Positions 4,345 to 20,521 of a stretch of 64,000 nucleotides of DNA are shown piece by piece (positions within the stretch are counted from its first letter, which is position 1; each line of letters begins with the position of its first letter). A program made the position numbers and the translations under genes. Under the pieces are notes generated by a model that ran no database searches, was not told the origin of the DNA, and was given only the letters and a program-made list of their open reading frames with translations. Source of the DNA: Pseudomonas sp. LRP2-20 (lineage in GTDB: Bacteria > Pseudomonadota > Gammaproteobacteria > Pseudomonadales > Pseudomonadaceae); the NCBI RefSeq assembly GCF_024349685.1, contig NZ_AP025944.1:564001-628000 (forward strand). Direction: 5' to 3'.

Positions 4345-5059
4345 GTACGCCGTTCAGGCGTGGGTAAGGGATCTTCAACTCCACGTGGCCCATGGAGTAG
4401 GGCGCGATGGCATAGACCTCGTACTTCACCACCAGCGCGCCGTACGTCAGGGCGATGTGCGGCGACTTCTTGAACGGCCAGGTCTTGACGAACTCGGCGT
4501 CCTTGTCCATTCCAACGCTGATCAGCCAGGCACGGTGCGACTCTTCCACGGTCTTCCAGAAGGTCTCCTCCTGGCCTGGCACCAGCATGTCCTGCAGGGT
4601 CAGCACCTTGTCCAGCTTGCGCGAGTAGTTGATGAAGCCGCGCCCCGGCATGCCGTGGGCACCGCCGCTGTCGAGGTAGCTGGACAGCTCGATGATCACC
4701 AGGCCGTCATGCTGCTCGCGTACCTTGGCTTGCAGGTAGCTGCTGTTGCGTTTGTCGGCGCTGGCCAGGTATTGCTGTTCGTAGGCCTGCAGGGTGCTTG
4801 GCGCGGTGCCATGCTGATTGTCTTCGGTCAGCTGCAGCAGGCGTTTTTCGACGATGGCATCGAGCTTGGGCTGGGCCGGGAAATGCACGGTGTCAATGTT
4901 CACCAGTGGGCAGTCGCTTGCGCTGCAGCCAGGTTTGACGTGCTCCCAGGCATCACGCTTGACCTCGAGCGGGGTCCGGTAATTGGGTGCGAACAGGCTC
5001 TGGCAGGCGCCCAGAGCGAGAGCCAGCACGGCCACGGAAGTCAGTTTGACAAGTGTCAT
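4313..5059 (-). CDS. DUF3298-type (RsiV-like) lipoprotein
   Basis: A 248-residue protein with a lipoprotein signal: VAVLALALGAC, with the lipobox Cys near residue 19. It should be lipidated and held in the envelope. The body (LDAIVEKRLLQLTEDNQ, then GLVIIELSSYLDSGGAHG and FINYSRKLDKVLTLQDML) resembles DUF4163/DUF3298 domains, best known from the extracellular part of RsiV. No anti-sigma domain or sigma gene is present, so it is not a typical RsiV. It converges on cytX with a 32-nt overlap. Its function is unknown. Confidence 0.8.
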   Translation of the reverse strand: MTLVKLTSVAVLALALGACQSLFAPNYRTPLEVKRDAWEHVKPGCSASDCPLVNIDTVHFPAQPKLDAIVEKRLLQLTEDNQHGTAPSTLQAYEQQYLASADKRNSSYLQAKVREQHDGLVIIELSSYLDSGGAHGMPGRGFINYSRKLDKVLTLQDMLVPGQEETFWKTVEESHRAWLISVGMDKDAEFVKTWPFKKSPHIALTYGALVVKYEVYAIAPYSMGHVELKIPYPRLNGVLKPELFPGRG

Positions 5060-5243
5060 GATGATCCTTGCAGAACAGGAAAAGTCGGCCTTTGACCGTC
5101 TGCGCGGCCTTCAGTTCGCCACTAAGCTAACAGAGTGAAGGCGTGCTGTCCCGAGTGCGCGAACGGTTGCCGGAAAGGGGTGAAACGGGCAACCGTGCAG
5201 AGTAGGATGGCGCGATGCGGTAAATGAGGTCATGAGGATTTCC

Positions 5244-5864
5244 ATGTCAGACACGTTGAATTCGGTGCCCAAGGCGGTCGAGATCGTCGAGCGGGCCAAC
5301 TGTTTCAAGGGCTTTTACAAGCTCGACAAGGTGCACCTGCGCCATGAACTGTTCGCGGGCGGCATGAGCCGTGAGATCAGCCGTGAGCTGTTCGTGCGTC
5401 ATGATGCGGTCTGTGTGCTGCCTTACGACCCACTGCGCGATGAGGTGGTGCTGATCGAGCAGTTCCGTGTCGGCGCCCTGGGCAAGGTCGACAACCCCTG
5501 GCTGATCGAGATGGTCGCCGGGCTGATCGACAAAGCTACCGAAGAGCCCGAAGCAGTCGCCCATCGCGAAGCCGAAGAAGAAGCAGGCCTTGCGATCAGT
5601 GCCCTGTGGCCGATCACCCGCTACTTCCCCTCGCCAGGCGGCAGCGACGAGTACGTGCACCTGTACCTCGGCCGCTGCACCAGTGAAGGCGCGGGCGGCC
5701 TGCATGGCCTGGAAGAAGAAAGCGAGGACATCCGTGTCCGCGTATGGTCATTCGACGATGCGATGCAGGCCGTACGCGATGGTCAAATCTGCAACGCGGC
5801 GACCATCATCAGCCTGCAGTGGCTGGCGCTGAACAAAGACGAAGTTCGAGGTATGTGGAAGTGA
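5244..5864 (+). CDS. nudF: ADP-ribose pyrophosphatase NudF
   Basis: A Nudix hydrolase cleaving ADP-ribose to AMP and ribose 5-phosphate; 206 residues from the ATG at 5244. That start has GAGGA at 5234-5238 at good spacing; an in-frame ATG at 5232 is possible but poorly placed for a ribosome site. The Nudix box runs GLIDKATEEPEAVAHREAEE then EAGL, carrying REAEEEAG. The gap between the first Gly and first conserved Glu is six residues instead of five. SPGGSDEYVHLYLG after the box is typical of the ADP-ribose subfamily. It starts the conserved cluster nudF-DUF1249-cpdA-yqiA-parE. Confidence 0.93.
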   Translation: MSDTLNSVPKAVEIVERANCFKGFYKLDKVHLRHELFAGGMSREISRELFVRHDAVCVLPYDPLRDEVVLIEQFRVGALGKVDNPWLIEMVAGLIDKATEEPEAVAHREAEEEAGLAISALWPITRYFPSPGGSDEYVHLYLGRCTSEGAGGLHGLEEESEDIRVRVWSFDDAMQAVRDGQICNAATIISLQWLALNKDEVRGMWK

Positions 5865-6307
5865 ACCTCTTGCGTGAGCGTTATCGGGTCGATCTGGCCG
5901 GGCTGCAAGCAGCCTGCGAGGCCAACTATGCCCGGCTCATGCGCCTGCTGCCCGATATGCGTACCACCCAGAGCTCGCGGCGCATCGGCATGACCCAGGG
6001 CGACCAGATGCTCGGCGTGCTGGTGCTCGATGTGTTGCTGGCCTGCCCGTACACCACCACTTTGCGGGTACGCCAGGAGCACAGCCTGCCCTGGCTGCCG
6101 GTGCCGCACCTGGAGGTGCAGGTGTATCACGATGCGCGCATGGCCGAAGTGATCAGCGCCGAGCATACCCGCCGCCTGCGCAGCATTTACCCGTACCCCA
6201 ACGAGGCCATGCACCAGCCGGACGAGAAGGCGCAGCTCAATCTGTTCCTCGGCGAATGGCTCAGCCATTGCCTGGCCTGCGGCCACGAACTGGCAAGTGT
6301 GCGCTGA
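5861..6307 (+). CDS. DUF1249 (YqiB-like) protein
   Basis: A 148-residue soluble protein with no signal peptide or membrane segment. It starts at a GTG (5861) overlapping the nudF stop by 4 nt, which implies translational coupling. The sequence (VNLLRERYRVDLAGL, YARLMRLLPDMR, LEVQVYHDARMAEVIS, YPYPNEAMHQPDEKAQLNLF) matches the DUF1249/YqiB family. In enterobacteria yqiB also lies between nudF and cpdA. The biochemical role is unknown. Confidence 0.88.
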   Translation: MNLLRERYRVDLAGLQAACEANYARLMRLLPDMRTTQSSRRIGMTQGDQMLGVLVLDVLLACPYTTTLRVRQEHSLPWLPVPHLEVQVYHDARMAEVISAEHTRRLRSIYPYPNEAMHQPDEKAQLNLFLGEWLSHCLACGHELASVR

Positions 6308-6392
6308 AATGTGACCTGGGTCGGTTTCGAGTGTTTGCTCGCAACCGATCCAGCGCCATAATTCGCGCAGAATCCGTTCGAGGAGACGGCCG

Positions 6393-7196
6393 TTGCCGCA
6401 CCCAGACTCTTCCCCTGCATCCGTACATGTGGTGCAACTGACCGACGCCCACCTGTTTGCCGACCCGGCGGGCACCTTGCTGGGCCTCAATACCCGTGAC
6501 AGCCTGCGCCACGTGGTCGCCCAGGTGTGCCGCGAACAGCCGCGTGTCGACTTGCTGTTGTGCACCGGCGATCTGTCACAAGATGCCACTGTCGCTTCCT
6601 ATCAAGCTTTCCGTGAGCTGACCCGGGAAATCCCTGCGCCAACACGCTGGCTGCCAGGTAACCATGATGAAGCCAAGGTCATGGCCGAAGTCGCGCCAGA
6701 GCTGCTGCAGTCGGTGACCGATATCGGCAGCTGGCGGGTGGTCATGCTCAATTCGGCGGTGCTGGGCGCTACCCATGGGCTACTCGAGCAGGATCAGTTG
6801 TCGATCCTCGATCAAGCCTTGGCGTCGGCCGCCGAGCGCCATTGCCTGGTGTGCTGCCACCATCAGCCGGTGGATATCGGTTGCGCCTGGATCGCCCCGA
6901 TCGGTTTGCGCAATGCCGATGAGTTGCTGCAGCGCCTGCGTGGTTATCCACAGGTGAAGGCGTTGCTCTGGGGGCATATCCACCAGGAATGGGATGAACT
7001 GCGCGATGGCTTGCGCCTGCTGGCCACGCCATCGACCTGCATCCAGTTTGCGCCGGGCAGCGAGGACTTCAAGGTCAGCGAGGAGCAGCCGGGGTATCGC
7101 TGGCTGCGCCTGCATGCCGATGGGCGAGTGGAGACAGGTGTGGAGCGGGCTACTGATTTTGCAGTGAAGCTCGACTTCAATAGCGCGGGGTATTAG
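6393..7196 (+). CDS. cpdA: 3',5'-cyclic-AMP phosphodiesterase CpdA
   Basis: A calcineurin-like metallophosphoesterase of 267 residues that hydrolyses cAMP. The metal-binding motifs appear in order: LTDAHLF (D-x-H), CTGDLS (GD), LPGNHDE (GNHD), CCHHQPV and GHIHQEW (GHxH). Translation starts at a TTG (6393) with AGGAG at 6381-6385; no closer ATG fits the family N terminus. It belongs to the nudF-parE cluster, but an IS3 element now separates it from yqiA. Confidence 0.94.
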   Translation: MPHPDSSPASVHVVQLTDAHLFADPAGTLLGLNTRDSLRHVVAQVCREQPRVDLLLCTGDLSQDATVASYQAFRELTREIPAPTRWLPGNHDEAKVMAEVAPELLQSVTDIGSWRVVMLNSAVLGATHGLLEQDQLSILDQALASAAERHCLVCCHHQPVDIGCAWIAPIGLRNADELLQRLRGYPQVKALLWGHIHQEWDELRDGLRLLATPSTCIQFAPGSEDFKVSEEQPGYRWLRLHADGRVETGVERATDFAVKLDFNSAGY

Positions 7197-17818: not shown

Positions 17819-19033
17819 GTGCGCGAAATCGTTCTGATCAACATCACCGGTGAGGACCGCCCCGGTCTCACCGCCGCCATTACCGGCGTCCTGCTCCAGG
17901 GCGGTGTGAACATCCTCGACATCGGCCTGGCGGTCATGCACGGCACCCTGTCGTTCGGCATTCTGGTCGATATCCCGGACAATGAAGTGGCGACCAGCCT
18001 GCTGCAGAGCGTGCAGTCCAAGGCCCATGAGCTGAACCTGCAAGCGCGTTACACGCCGATTTCCGAGGCCGACTACCAGCACTGGGCCGACGCCCAGGGC
18101 GAAGCTCGACATATCGTGACCTTGCTCAGCCGCAAGATCACCCCCGAGCAACTGCAACGCGTCAGCGCCGTCATCAGCCAGTATGGCCTGACCATCGAAC
18201 GTATCGAGCGCCTGTCGGCACGGGTTGCCCTGGGCGCTTCGAGTGAAAAGGGCAAGGCGGCGCTGGAAATTTCCGTGCGTGGCGTGCCGAGCGACGCCCA
18301 GGCATTGCGTGCCGACTTCTTCGCGCTGTCTGAAGAGCTGAACATCGACATCGCGTTCCAGAACGACGACCTGTTCCGTCGCAACCGCCGCCTGGCGGTG
18401 TTCGACATGGACTCGACGCTGATCGAAGCTGAAGTCATTGATGAGCTGGCCAAGGCGGCCGGCGTGGGTGAGCAGGTTGCCGCGATCACCGAGCGGGCGA
18501 TGCGTGGCGAGCTGGACTTCCGCGCCAGCTTCAAGGAGCGCATGGCGCTGCTCAAGGGCCTGGATGTCGGCGTACTCGACGAGATCGGTGCTTCCCTGCG
18601 CCTGACCGAAGGTGCCGAGAACCTGTTTGCCGAGCTCAAGCGCCTGGGCTACAAGACAGCGATCCTGTCCGGCGGCTTCTCGTACTTCGCCAAACAAGTG
18701 CAGGCGCGCCTGGGTATCGATTACGTATTCGCCAACGAGCTGGAAGTGGTCGATGGCAAGGTGACCGGCGTGGCCGTGGAACCGATCGTCGATGCCCAGC
18801 GCAAGGCTGACCTGCTGCAGCAGCTGGCCAGTGAAGAAGGCCTGCAGCTGGAGCAGACCATCGCCGTGGGCGACGGTGCCAACGATCTGCCGATGCTGTC
18901 GCTGGCTGGCCTGGGCGTGGCCTTCCGCGCCAAGCCGCTGGTGCGCCAGTCGGCCAAGCAGGCGATTTCCACCCTGGGGCTGGATGGCGTGCTTTACCTG
19001 CTGGGCCTGCGCGACCGCGACGCCCGCGGCTGA
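17819..19033 (+). CDS. serB: phosphoserine phosphatase SerB
   Basis: It catalyses the last step of serine synthesis, dephosphorylating phosphoserine; 404 residues. Two N-terminal ACT-like domains (IVLINITGEDRPGLTAAITG; HIVTLLSRKITPEQLQRVSA) precede a HAD phosphatase domain. That domain has VFDMDSTLIEAEVIDELA (DxDxT, near residue 196), ILSGGFSYF and VGDGANDLPML. The GTG at 17819 is chosen because GGAG lies 7 nt upstream and the product then begins MREIVLINI like other SerB proteins; the upstream extension has no family similarity. Confidence 0.96.
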   Translation: MREIVLINITGEDRPGLTAAITGVLLQGGVNILDIGLAVMHGTLSFGILVDIPDNEVATSLLQSVQSKAHELNLQARYTPISEADYQHWADAQGEARHIVTLLSRKITPEQLQRVSAVISQYGLTIERIERLSARVALGASSEKGKAALEISVRGVPSDAQALRADFFALSEELNIDIAFQNDDLFRRNRRLAVFDMDSTLIEAEVIDELAKAAGVGEQVAAITERAMRGELDFRASFKERMALLKGLDVGVLDEIGASLRLTEGAENLFAELKRLGYKTAILSGGFSYFAKQVQARLGIDYVFANELEVVDGKVTGVAVEPIVDAQRKADLLQQLASEEGLQLEQTIAVGDGANDLPMLSLAGLGVAFRAKPLVRQSAKQAISTLGLDGVLYLLGLRDRDARG

Positions 19034-19205
19034 AATGCCATTCGGGGCCCACAGGGGCCCCTGTTCCCTTGCTACTAGGTTGATTGCGAACTGTTCTAAG
19101 TTCTCCTCGCAGCGCCATCTAGGCTTGGATCCGTACGGTTCACTCATCGACCGTACTGGCCCGGGGGGAGTCCTCGTGGCCATCAACTTCAAGGAGAAGA
19201 AGTTC

Positions 19206-19607
19206 ATGTCCAAGTACGCAGTGGAGAATCAGTGGGGCGGTAACTCGGCACCTTGGCACCCGGGCGGAATCTGGGTAATTGGGGGCCGTGACAACCAGAA
19301 GGTGGTGTCGGTGGACGTCAAATCGAATGATGGCGGCCAGACACTGCAAGGCGTCATGACCTACGCCGGCGAAGGACCGATCGGCTTCCAGGGCAAGCGT
19401 ATCGCGCAGAACCGTTATCAGGTGCAGAACCAGTGGGGTGGCAATAGCGCGCCCTGGCACCCAGGCGGAGAATGGGTGATCGGAGGGCGTGATAACCAGA
19501 ATGTCATTGCCCTGACGGTGAAGTCCGACGATGGCGGCCTCACCCTCAACGGTACCAACACCTATAACGACGAGGGCCCGATCGGCTTCCGCAGCCTGCT
19601 CGGCTGA
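19206..19607 (+). CDS. OAA-family (Oscillatoria agardhii agglutinin-like) lectin
   Basis: A 133-residue protein built from two tandem repeats of about 67 residues. Each begins ENQWGGNSAPWHPGG or QNQWGGNSAPWHPGG, continues with WVIGGRDNQ, and ends EGPIGF. This is the signature of OAA-family lectins, compact beta-barrels that bind the core of high-mannose glycans; members include agglutinins from cyanobacteria, Myxococcus and Pseudomonas fluorescens. The ATG at 19206 has AAGGAG at 19191-19196; a GTG at 19176, preceded by GGGGGAG, is an alternative. No signal peptide is visible. It sits alone between serB and the convergent psd gene. Confidence 0.93.
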   Translation: MSKYAVENQWGGNSAPWHPGGIWVIGGRDNQKVVSVDVKSNDGGQTLQGVMTYAGEGPIGFQGKRIAQNRYQVQNQWGGNSAPWHPGGEWVIGGRDNQNVIALTVKSDDGGLTLNGTNTYNDEGPIGFRSLLG

Positions 19608-19619
19608 CCCCTGCGGAGT

Positions 19620-19652
19620 CAACGCTCCCCGGCCACAAGCCGGGGAGCGTTG
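19620..19652. terminator. hairpin, probable terminator between the lectin gene and psd
   Basis: CAACGCTCCCCGGC and GCCGGGGAGCGTTG form a perfect 14-bp stem with a 5-nt loop. It starts 12 nt after the lectin stop and 6 nt beyond the convergent psd end. The U-tract is weak. Confidence 0.7.
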
Positions 19653-19657
19653 AAGGC

Positions 19658-20521
19658 TCAGGCCTGTTGCGGTTGGGCGAGGAATTCGCCCATGCGTACT
19701 GCGGAGCCTGCGCCCAACGTTTCGGCCCACTTCACTTGCTCCGGGCCGAACAGCACGATGGCGGTTGAACCCAGTTTGAAGCGGCCGAGCTCGGCGCCTT
19801 TTTCCAGGTGAATAGGCGCACGGCTGCTTTCGTCGTAGCGGAAGGTCTTCAGCTCGCGCTTCGGCGGGGTGACCAGGCCAGCCCACACGGTCTCGATCGA
19901 AGCGACGATCATGGCACCGACCAGCACCACGGCCATCGGCCCGCGCTCGGTATCGAACAGGCACACCACGCGCTCATTGCGGGCGAACAGCTCCGGAACG
20001 TTCTCGGCAGTGGTCTGGTTGACCGAGAACAGACGCCCCGGCACATAGACCATCTCGCGCAGGGTACCGGCCAGCGGCATGTGCACGCGGTGGTAATCCT
20101 TCGGCGACAGATAGATGGTGGCGAACTCGCCACCCATGAACGGCGCAGCCAGCGCTGGGTCGCCGCCGAGCAGTTCGAGGGCGCTGTAGCTGTGGCCCTT
20201 GGCCTGGAAGATACGACCGTGCTCGATCGGGCCCAGCTGGCTGACGGCACCGTCGGCCGGGCAGAGGATTGCGCCGGGGGTTTCGTCCAGCGGGCGCGCG
20301 CCTGGCTTGAGGGCGCGGGTGAAGAAGGCGTTGAAGTGCTCGTAGGCGGTGAGGTCTTCGACCAGCGCTTCGCTCATGTTCACCTGGTAACGCTTGGCGA
20401 ACCAGGCGGTGAAGGCGTTCTTGAACCAGCGCGCACGGCACTCGGCGATGCAGCCAGCCAGACGCGACAGCAAGTGGTGCGGCAGCAGGTACTGGCTGAT
20501 GATGAACAGACGGGATTTCAT
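19658..20521 (-). CDS. psd: phosphatidylserine decarboxylase
   Basis: It converts phosphatidylserine to phosphatidylethanolamine at the inner membrane. The 287-residue proenzyme carries the self-cleavage motif LGST (about residues 250-253), where the Ser becomes the pyruvoyl group. Other family features are [20 protein letters not shown] and [16 protein letters not shown] with its conserved His. The ATG at 20519-20521 gives the typical N terminus [20 protein letters not shown]. It lies 14 bp after rhdA, probably in one operon with rhdA and the HDOD gene. Confidence 0.96.

Follow-up and report, generated by a model that had tools for sequence, protein, structure and literature searches.

A psd-linked OAA-family lectin gene of Pseudomonas with a conserved 5′ leader and a possible place under Rsm and RpoS control

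The window, a 64,000-nucleotide stretch of the Pseudomonas sp. LRP2-20 genome (contig NZ_AP025944.1, positions 564,001 to 628,000), contains the only OAA-family lectin gene of this genome, preceded by a 5′ leader that is conserved among all 41 Pseudomonas lectin genes compared. Judged by its sequence, the protein is an ordinary new member of the known OAA family, essentially the P. taiwanensis lectin PTL, and the leader, which was absent from the initial annotation, is the new part and is worth following. Our tentative proposal, which we rate somewhat below an even chance, is that the Pseudomonas OAA lectins derive from a single ancient locus, with a three-hairpin leader that could be read by RsmE/RsmA and a promoter that would be of the RpoS type. 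The features of the locus are collected in Table 1.

Table 1. Features of the lectin locus (feature; position in the window; strand; basis)
serB, phosphoserine phosphatase, upstream neighbour	17819..19033	+	TIGR00338, 264.6 bits (cut-off 144.15)
CTAGGCT, RpoS-type -10-like box (CTANNCT)	19119..19125	+	consensus match only
Leader hairpin H1, stem 19133-19140 / 19149-19156	19133..19156	+	RNA fold of the window
Leader hairpin H2	19157..19182	+	predicted from the window fold and per-sequence folds
Hairpin H3, AACTTC/GAAGTT stem with AAGGAG (Shine-Dalgarno) in an 8-base loop, RsmE-site-like	19185..19204	+	conserved block and window fold
OAA-family high-mannose lectin, 133 aa, two repeats (ATG at 19206, stop ending at 19607)	19206..19607	+	ORF, profile matches, repeat alignment
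Inverted repeat between convergent lectin and psd, 24-base arms, no T-run on either strand	19610..19662	.	sequence
psd, phosphatidylserine decarboxylase, convergent downstream	19658..20521	-	TIGR00163, 259.8 bits (cut-off 111.75)

The 133 codons of the lectin gene encode two tandem repeats of about 66 residues, with 43 identities between residues 4-68 and residues 71-133; the first repeat carries ENQWGGNSAPWHPGG, the second carries QNQWGGNSAPWHPGG, and EGPIGF is found in both. The protein scored 152.7 bits against PF17882, the OAA-family lectin sugar binding domain (cut-off 20), over two stretches, and 211.9 bits against NCBIfam NF050073 (cut-off 150). No hydrophobic signal-like stretch could be recognized by eye in the N-terminus MSKYAVENQWGG or in its in-frame GTG extension. 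The initial annotation, which had described an OAA-type lectin with two tandem EGPIGF-bearing repeats and no signal peptide, is thus upheld by the profile matches, the repeat alignment and this inspection by eye. A protein search retrieved 186 relatives; among the best 120 of these 186, nearly all contained PF17882, and the source names pointed to cyanobacteria, Chloroflexota, Bacteroidota and Myxococcus.

Solved structures matching the lectin represented seven distinct sequences, namely MBHA, BOA, SfL-1, PTL (7DC0), PFL, the 3S5V lectin and OAA. The PTL chain (7DC0) aligns over lectin residues 1-133, with the same differences from the window lectin as the copy at locus L004 of P. taiwanensis DSM 21245, which is identical to the window lectin at 124 of 133 residues. 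At this level of identity, the PTL crystal suggests that the two repeats probably fold as one barrel. The 14 glycan-contact residues published for PTL (W10, G11, G12, R95, E123, G124 and P125, together with W77, G78, G79, R28, E56, G57 and P58), which are described as binding the 3α,6α-mannopentaose core of high-mannose glycans (PMC8166773), are all present in the window lectin and unchanged across all 41 Pseudomonas lectins. Binding to high-mannose glycans has been reported for both PTL and PFL (PMC8166773, PMC3447791).

Alignment of the upstream regions of the 41 lectin genes revealed two sequence elements and one structure in common, and the paired fraction of the whole leader structure falls to 32-42% when it is slid by 1-3 columns. 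The helix corresponding to H1 in the other groups (9 pairs) is paired in 99.4% of cells and covaries, with two-sided changes in 5 of its 9 pairs; the four rows of the window's group are gapped over most H1 columns and were counted in three columns with letters that do not belong to H1, their own H1 being seen in the window fold and in the per-sequence folds. In one genome (G241, locus L027) most of H1 is lost and the Shine-Dalgarno block is kept. Individually folded, the leaders had a median z of -3.0 and a weakest value of -1.4 (100 shuffles each).

The block AACTTCAAGGAGA.GA..TT.ATG is found in 41 of 41 leaders in five versions, and its first 13 bases (AACTTCAAGGAGA) are invariant throughout, with the preceding 25 bases coming in 22 versions. 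The Shine-Dalgarno AAGGAG of this block stands 9 bases 5′ of the lectin ATG. All six pairs of H3 are possible in 99.6% of cells, one of the 41 rows having one broken pair; there are zero two-sided changes among the 41, and the conservation of H3 could be for sequence alone. The minimum-energy folds place the Shine-Dalgarno within a hairpin loop in 29 of the 41 leaders and not in the other 12, and all six pairs of the H3 stem form in 25, the window included. Five or six of the six Shine-Dalgarno bases are paired with upstream bases in seven leaders, and in five more the Shine-Dalgarno is partly paired; the seven (L027, L068, L069, L076, L139, L141 and L143) could represent the other state of a switch. 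Searched against the genome within two mismatches, the block matched at one place, which is the lectin leader. A more relaxed RsmE-like pattern, in which an 8-base loop precedes an ATG, matched two places including the lectin, and the corresponding pattern with a 6-base loop matched two places, neither of which is the lectin, the reversed control giving one place in each case. No Rfam family reached its threshold in the leader, the single match being on the opposite strand (12 bits against 84).

Within the approximately 260 bases searched upstream, CTANNCT occurs exactly once in each of the 41 lectin genes, 72-95 bases from the ATG (87 in the window). The kept bases are presumably those that sigma-S cares most about. 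The Pseudomonas RpoS -10 element has been published as CTATACT (PMC11784136, PMC9793710), and the CTAGGCT of the window matches it at five of seven bases, with two differing. An RpoS gene is present in the genome, and a scan of 18900-19800 found no sigma-70 promoter. Taken from the consensus match, the lectin promoter may be RpoS-type and active in stationary phase. An in-frame GTG at 19176 was set aside as the lectin start because the distance from CTANNCT to the ATG changes by non-multiples of three (72, 87, 92-95), and because the codon third positions of the block are constant despite between-group synonymous differences of 0.44-0.67 in the lectin.

The gene lies in the serB-psd setting that the initial annotation had given it, with the serB start codon placed from the conserved VREIVLINITG; no intrinsic terminator was called in the 18900-19800 scan, the inverted repeat between lectin and psd included. 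Comparison of this interval across the genus agreed with the expectation of a patchy rather than universal gene, since a scan of 398 Pseudomonas genomes, including that of the window, found the lectin in 41, in one copy each, and psd in 397 (E up to 1e-60). The lectin is convergent with psd in 41 of 41 genomes, at a distance of 56-250 bases. Groups are referred to here by labels assigned in this analysis (taiwanensis-, japonica-, mandelii- and koreensis-like). The order serB-lectin-psd with an interval of 624-731 bases is seen in the window's group (G000, G134, G385 and G342) and in the japonica-like G319, and the fluorescens-type loci measured have 2.5-2.7 kb from serB to psd. The sole fluorescens-type locus opened for ORFs (L062) contains, between serB and the lectin and divergent from the latter, a 597-codon ORF (4691-6484, minus strand) with zero Pfam or NCBIfam matches.

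Among named genomes, 52 lectin loci were found, of which 40 were pseudomonad-type, all 40 beside psd and with the leader; these overlap largely with the 41 genomes of the genus scan and chiefly add names. The other 12, from bacteria including Fischerella, Herpetosiphon, Janthinobacterium and Moritella, had neither a psd match in the flanking DNA examined nor the leader. Two of the 40, in records titled Pantoea sp. Ap-967 and Paucimonas MAG (L157 and L164), have a serB-lectin-psd arrangement of the Pseudomonas type, so that these records may carry the wrong genus name. The lectin had zero matches in 72,556 plasmid and 50,697 phage records. Among the 357 lectin-less genomes, the serB-psd gap of the 85 loci with both flanks measured either 45-347 bases or 1.4-3.8 kb, and a search of 86 loci without the lectin for a decayed remnant of the cassette found none, giving five short chance matches (E 0.18-0.64). 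In loci outside the window's group, serB is either 87-93% or 70-80% identical to that of the window (L078, L081, L125 and L133 against L129-L132), which suggests that serB may have been replaced in some lineages; ahpA identity is 79-86% in both sets, and the psd compared there is a 200-base fragment. In L050 (G025), the usual left neighbour of serB ends 69 bases from psd, with no serB match within the 3.9 kb examined.

The initial annotation had further described the gene as inserted between serB and psd, which implies acquisition, and a recent acquisition is not supported. A recent horizontal insertion could account for the patchy presence, for the lack of decayed remnants in lectin-less loci, for the spread of the family over cyanobacteria, Chloroflexota, Bacteroidota and Myxococcus among the best 120 of 186 relatives, and for G308, which stands next to the window's genome in the rpoD tree (support 100/50) and has a 54-base gap at the locus in place of the lectin. 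Nevertheless, the lectin keeps one locus and its leader in all 41 genomes, no copy was found in the plasmid and phage collections, the 12 loci outside the pseudomonads differ in context and lack the leader, and the GC content of the lectin is only slightly below that of its flanks. The lectin tree also recovers species groups, the taiwanensis-, japonica- and mandelii-like groups each forming a clade and the koreensis-like group needing two changes, and pairwise synonymous divergence of the lectin follows that of rpoD (Spearman 0.90) and of psd (0.75), the pairs being non-independent. With the tree not incongruent and the insertion sites not differing, recent insertion was set aside as the weaker reading, and we regard it as very unlikely. 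The window lectin compared with that of G134 gave dN 0.012 and dS 0.538, and the lectin is under purifying selection. An rpoD tree was built from all 41 genomes with the lectin plus 39 of the 357 without it, the latter chosen non-randomly from genomes already examined. Lectin presence required 9 changes over these 80 genomes (8-9 in bootstraps), versus 27 on average when the labels were shuffled, and the well-supported branches by themselves demand 5. Repeated loss from an old fixed locus fits these patterns better than recent acquisition does, the change count itself giving no direction of gain or loss. The history of the locus may also be compatible with an ancient acquisition or with local recombination carrying psd along, and descent rather than a very old transfer is probably its main source.

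How the leader acts admits two readings as well. The RsmE stem-loops solved by NMR present A(N)GGAX in a loop of 5-8 bases closed by C-G and then U-A, with one exception (PMC4005645), and 41 of 41 leaders contain both the sequence and the complementary arms with which such a motif could be presented in the loop of a hairpin that overlaps the ribosome site. According to the same source, an RsmE site with two bases beyond the 6-base loop is bound about 10-fold more weakly. Alternatively, the leader may be conserved for a cause that involves no Rsm protein, as an intrinsic RNA switch (temperature, or ribosome stand-by) or as a strong ribosome site, a reading that we hold to be possible but well short of an even chance. 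The leaders whose Shine-Dalgarno is paired, wholly or nearly so with upstream bases in 7 of 41 and partly in 5 more, would suit a two-state switch, and the want of two-sided changes in H3 also speaks for it; on the other side, the loop and closing pairs fit the recognition described for RsmE (PMC4005645), the invariance of AACTTCAAGGAGA goes beyond what a ribosome site should need, the genome contains three CsrA-family genes, and no Rfam family came up at threshold. Rsm control of lectin translation is therefore our preferred, although sequence-derived, reading, and a stationary-phase, Gac/Rsm-gated stored lectin is favoured because of the H3 geometry, the CsrA-family and RpoS genes, and the report that extra RsmA lowers the lectin PA-IL (LecA) in P. 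aeruginosa (PMC4066749). A literature search linking this lectin family with RsmA/RsmE, Gac, RpoS or psd, mostly outside subscription journals, turned up no paper on how the family is regulated. As for the target, high-mannose glycans are chiefly eukaryotic. The authors who described PFL suggested a bacteriocin-like role (PMC3447791), and the lectin might act on bacteria or as a biofilm glue in the producer's own matrix; this we consider unlikely, given contact residues that are those binding the mannopentaose core in PTL (PMC8166773) and a protein with no visible export signal. A eukaryotic target would rather be expected, and an anti-grazer role is proposed because of the analogy to cytoplasmic proteins of mushrooms (PMC6238071) and the eukaryotic nature of the ligand.

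Taken together, it is reasonable to suggest an old single-locus gene beside psd, which has been passed on chiefly by descent, together with a promoter and leader of its own, and which many lineages have lost. Transcription of the gene would start at a stationary-phase, RpoS-type promoter, and its Shine-Dalgarno, lying in an RsmE/RsmA-type hairpin loop, could hold translation down until the Gac/Rsm system removes the repressor. With its two sites, the lectin would bind high-mannose N-glycans at their branched core. It is probably kept in the cytoplasm, and on lysis or ingestion of the cells it could cross-link the high-mannose glycoproteins of eukaryotes that graze on them or live beside them, such as amoebae, nematodes and fungi. 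We place this account as a whole, from the psd-linked locus to the eukaryotic glycans, just short of an even chance. If it is true, a family studied mainly as antivirals would take a place in the Gac/Rsm antagonism regulon, as a protein stored for use against grazers. According to the discoverers of PFL, what it and the other lectins of the family do physiologically is still to be clarified (PMC3447791); an Rsm-target-like leader would make the purpose of the lectin testable, in terms of when it is made, who represses it and what its deletion loses, and the fixed locus offers a clean presence/absence trait across species.

Among known systems, the cytoplasmic defence proteins of mushrooms (PMC6238071) resemble the lectin in the proposed mode, a stored cytoplasmic protein acting on the eater, although they belong to other organisms and the likeness is one of analogy alone. 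RsmE/RsmA-repressed mRNAs such as hcnA likewise present GGA in a ribosome-site hairpin loop with C-G and then U-A closure (PMC4005645), but their loops have 6 bases whereas the candidate loop of the lectin leader has 8. OAA, the Oscillatoria agardhii agglutinin (PDB 2MWH/3OBL), belongs to the same two-repeat family (182 bits) but is cyanobacterial, and the cyanobacterial relatives that were opened had neither the psd context nor the leader. PFL of P. fluorescens Pf0-1 (PDB 4FBO; PMC3447791) also has two repeats and matches at 222 bits over residues 1-130, and its cloning primer, as published, includes the leader-block bases AACTTCAAG; it is nevertheless more distant from the window lectin, the fluorescens-type lectins of the genus scan being 70-76% identical. 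Closest is PTL (PDB 7DC0/7DC4; PMC8166773), which agrees with the window lectin in length, in the 14 contact residues, in locus and in leader, and differs from it by nine substitutions, zero of them at contact residues.
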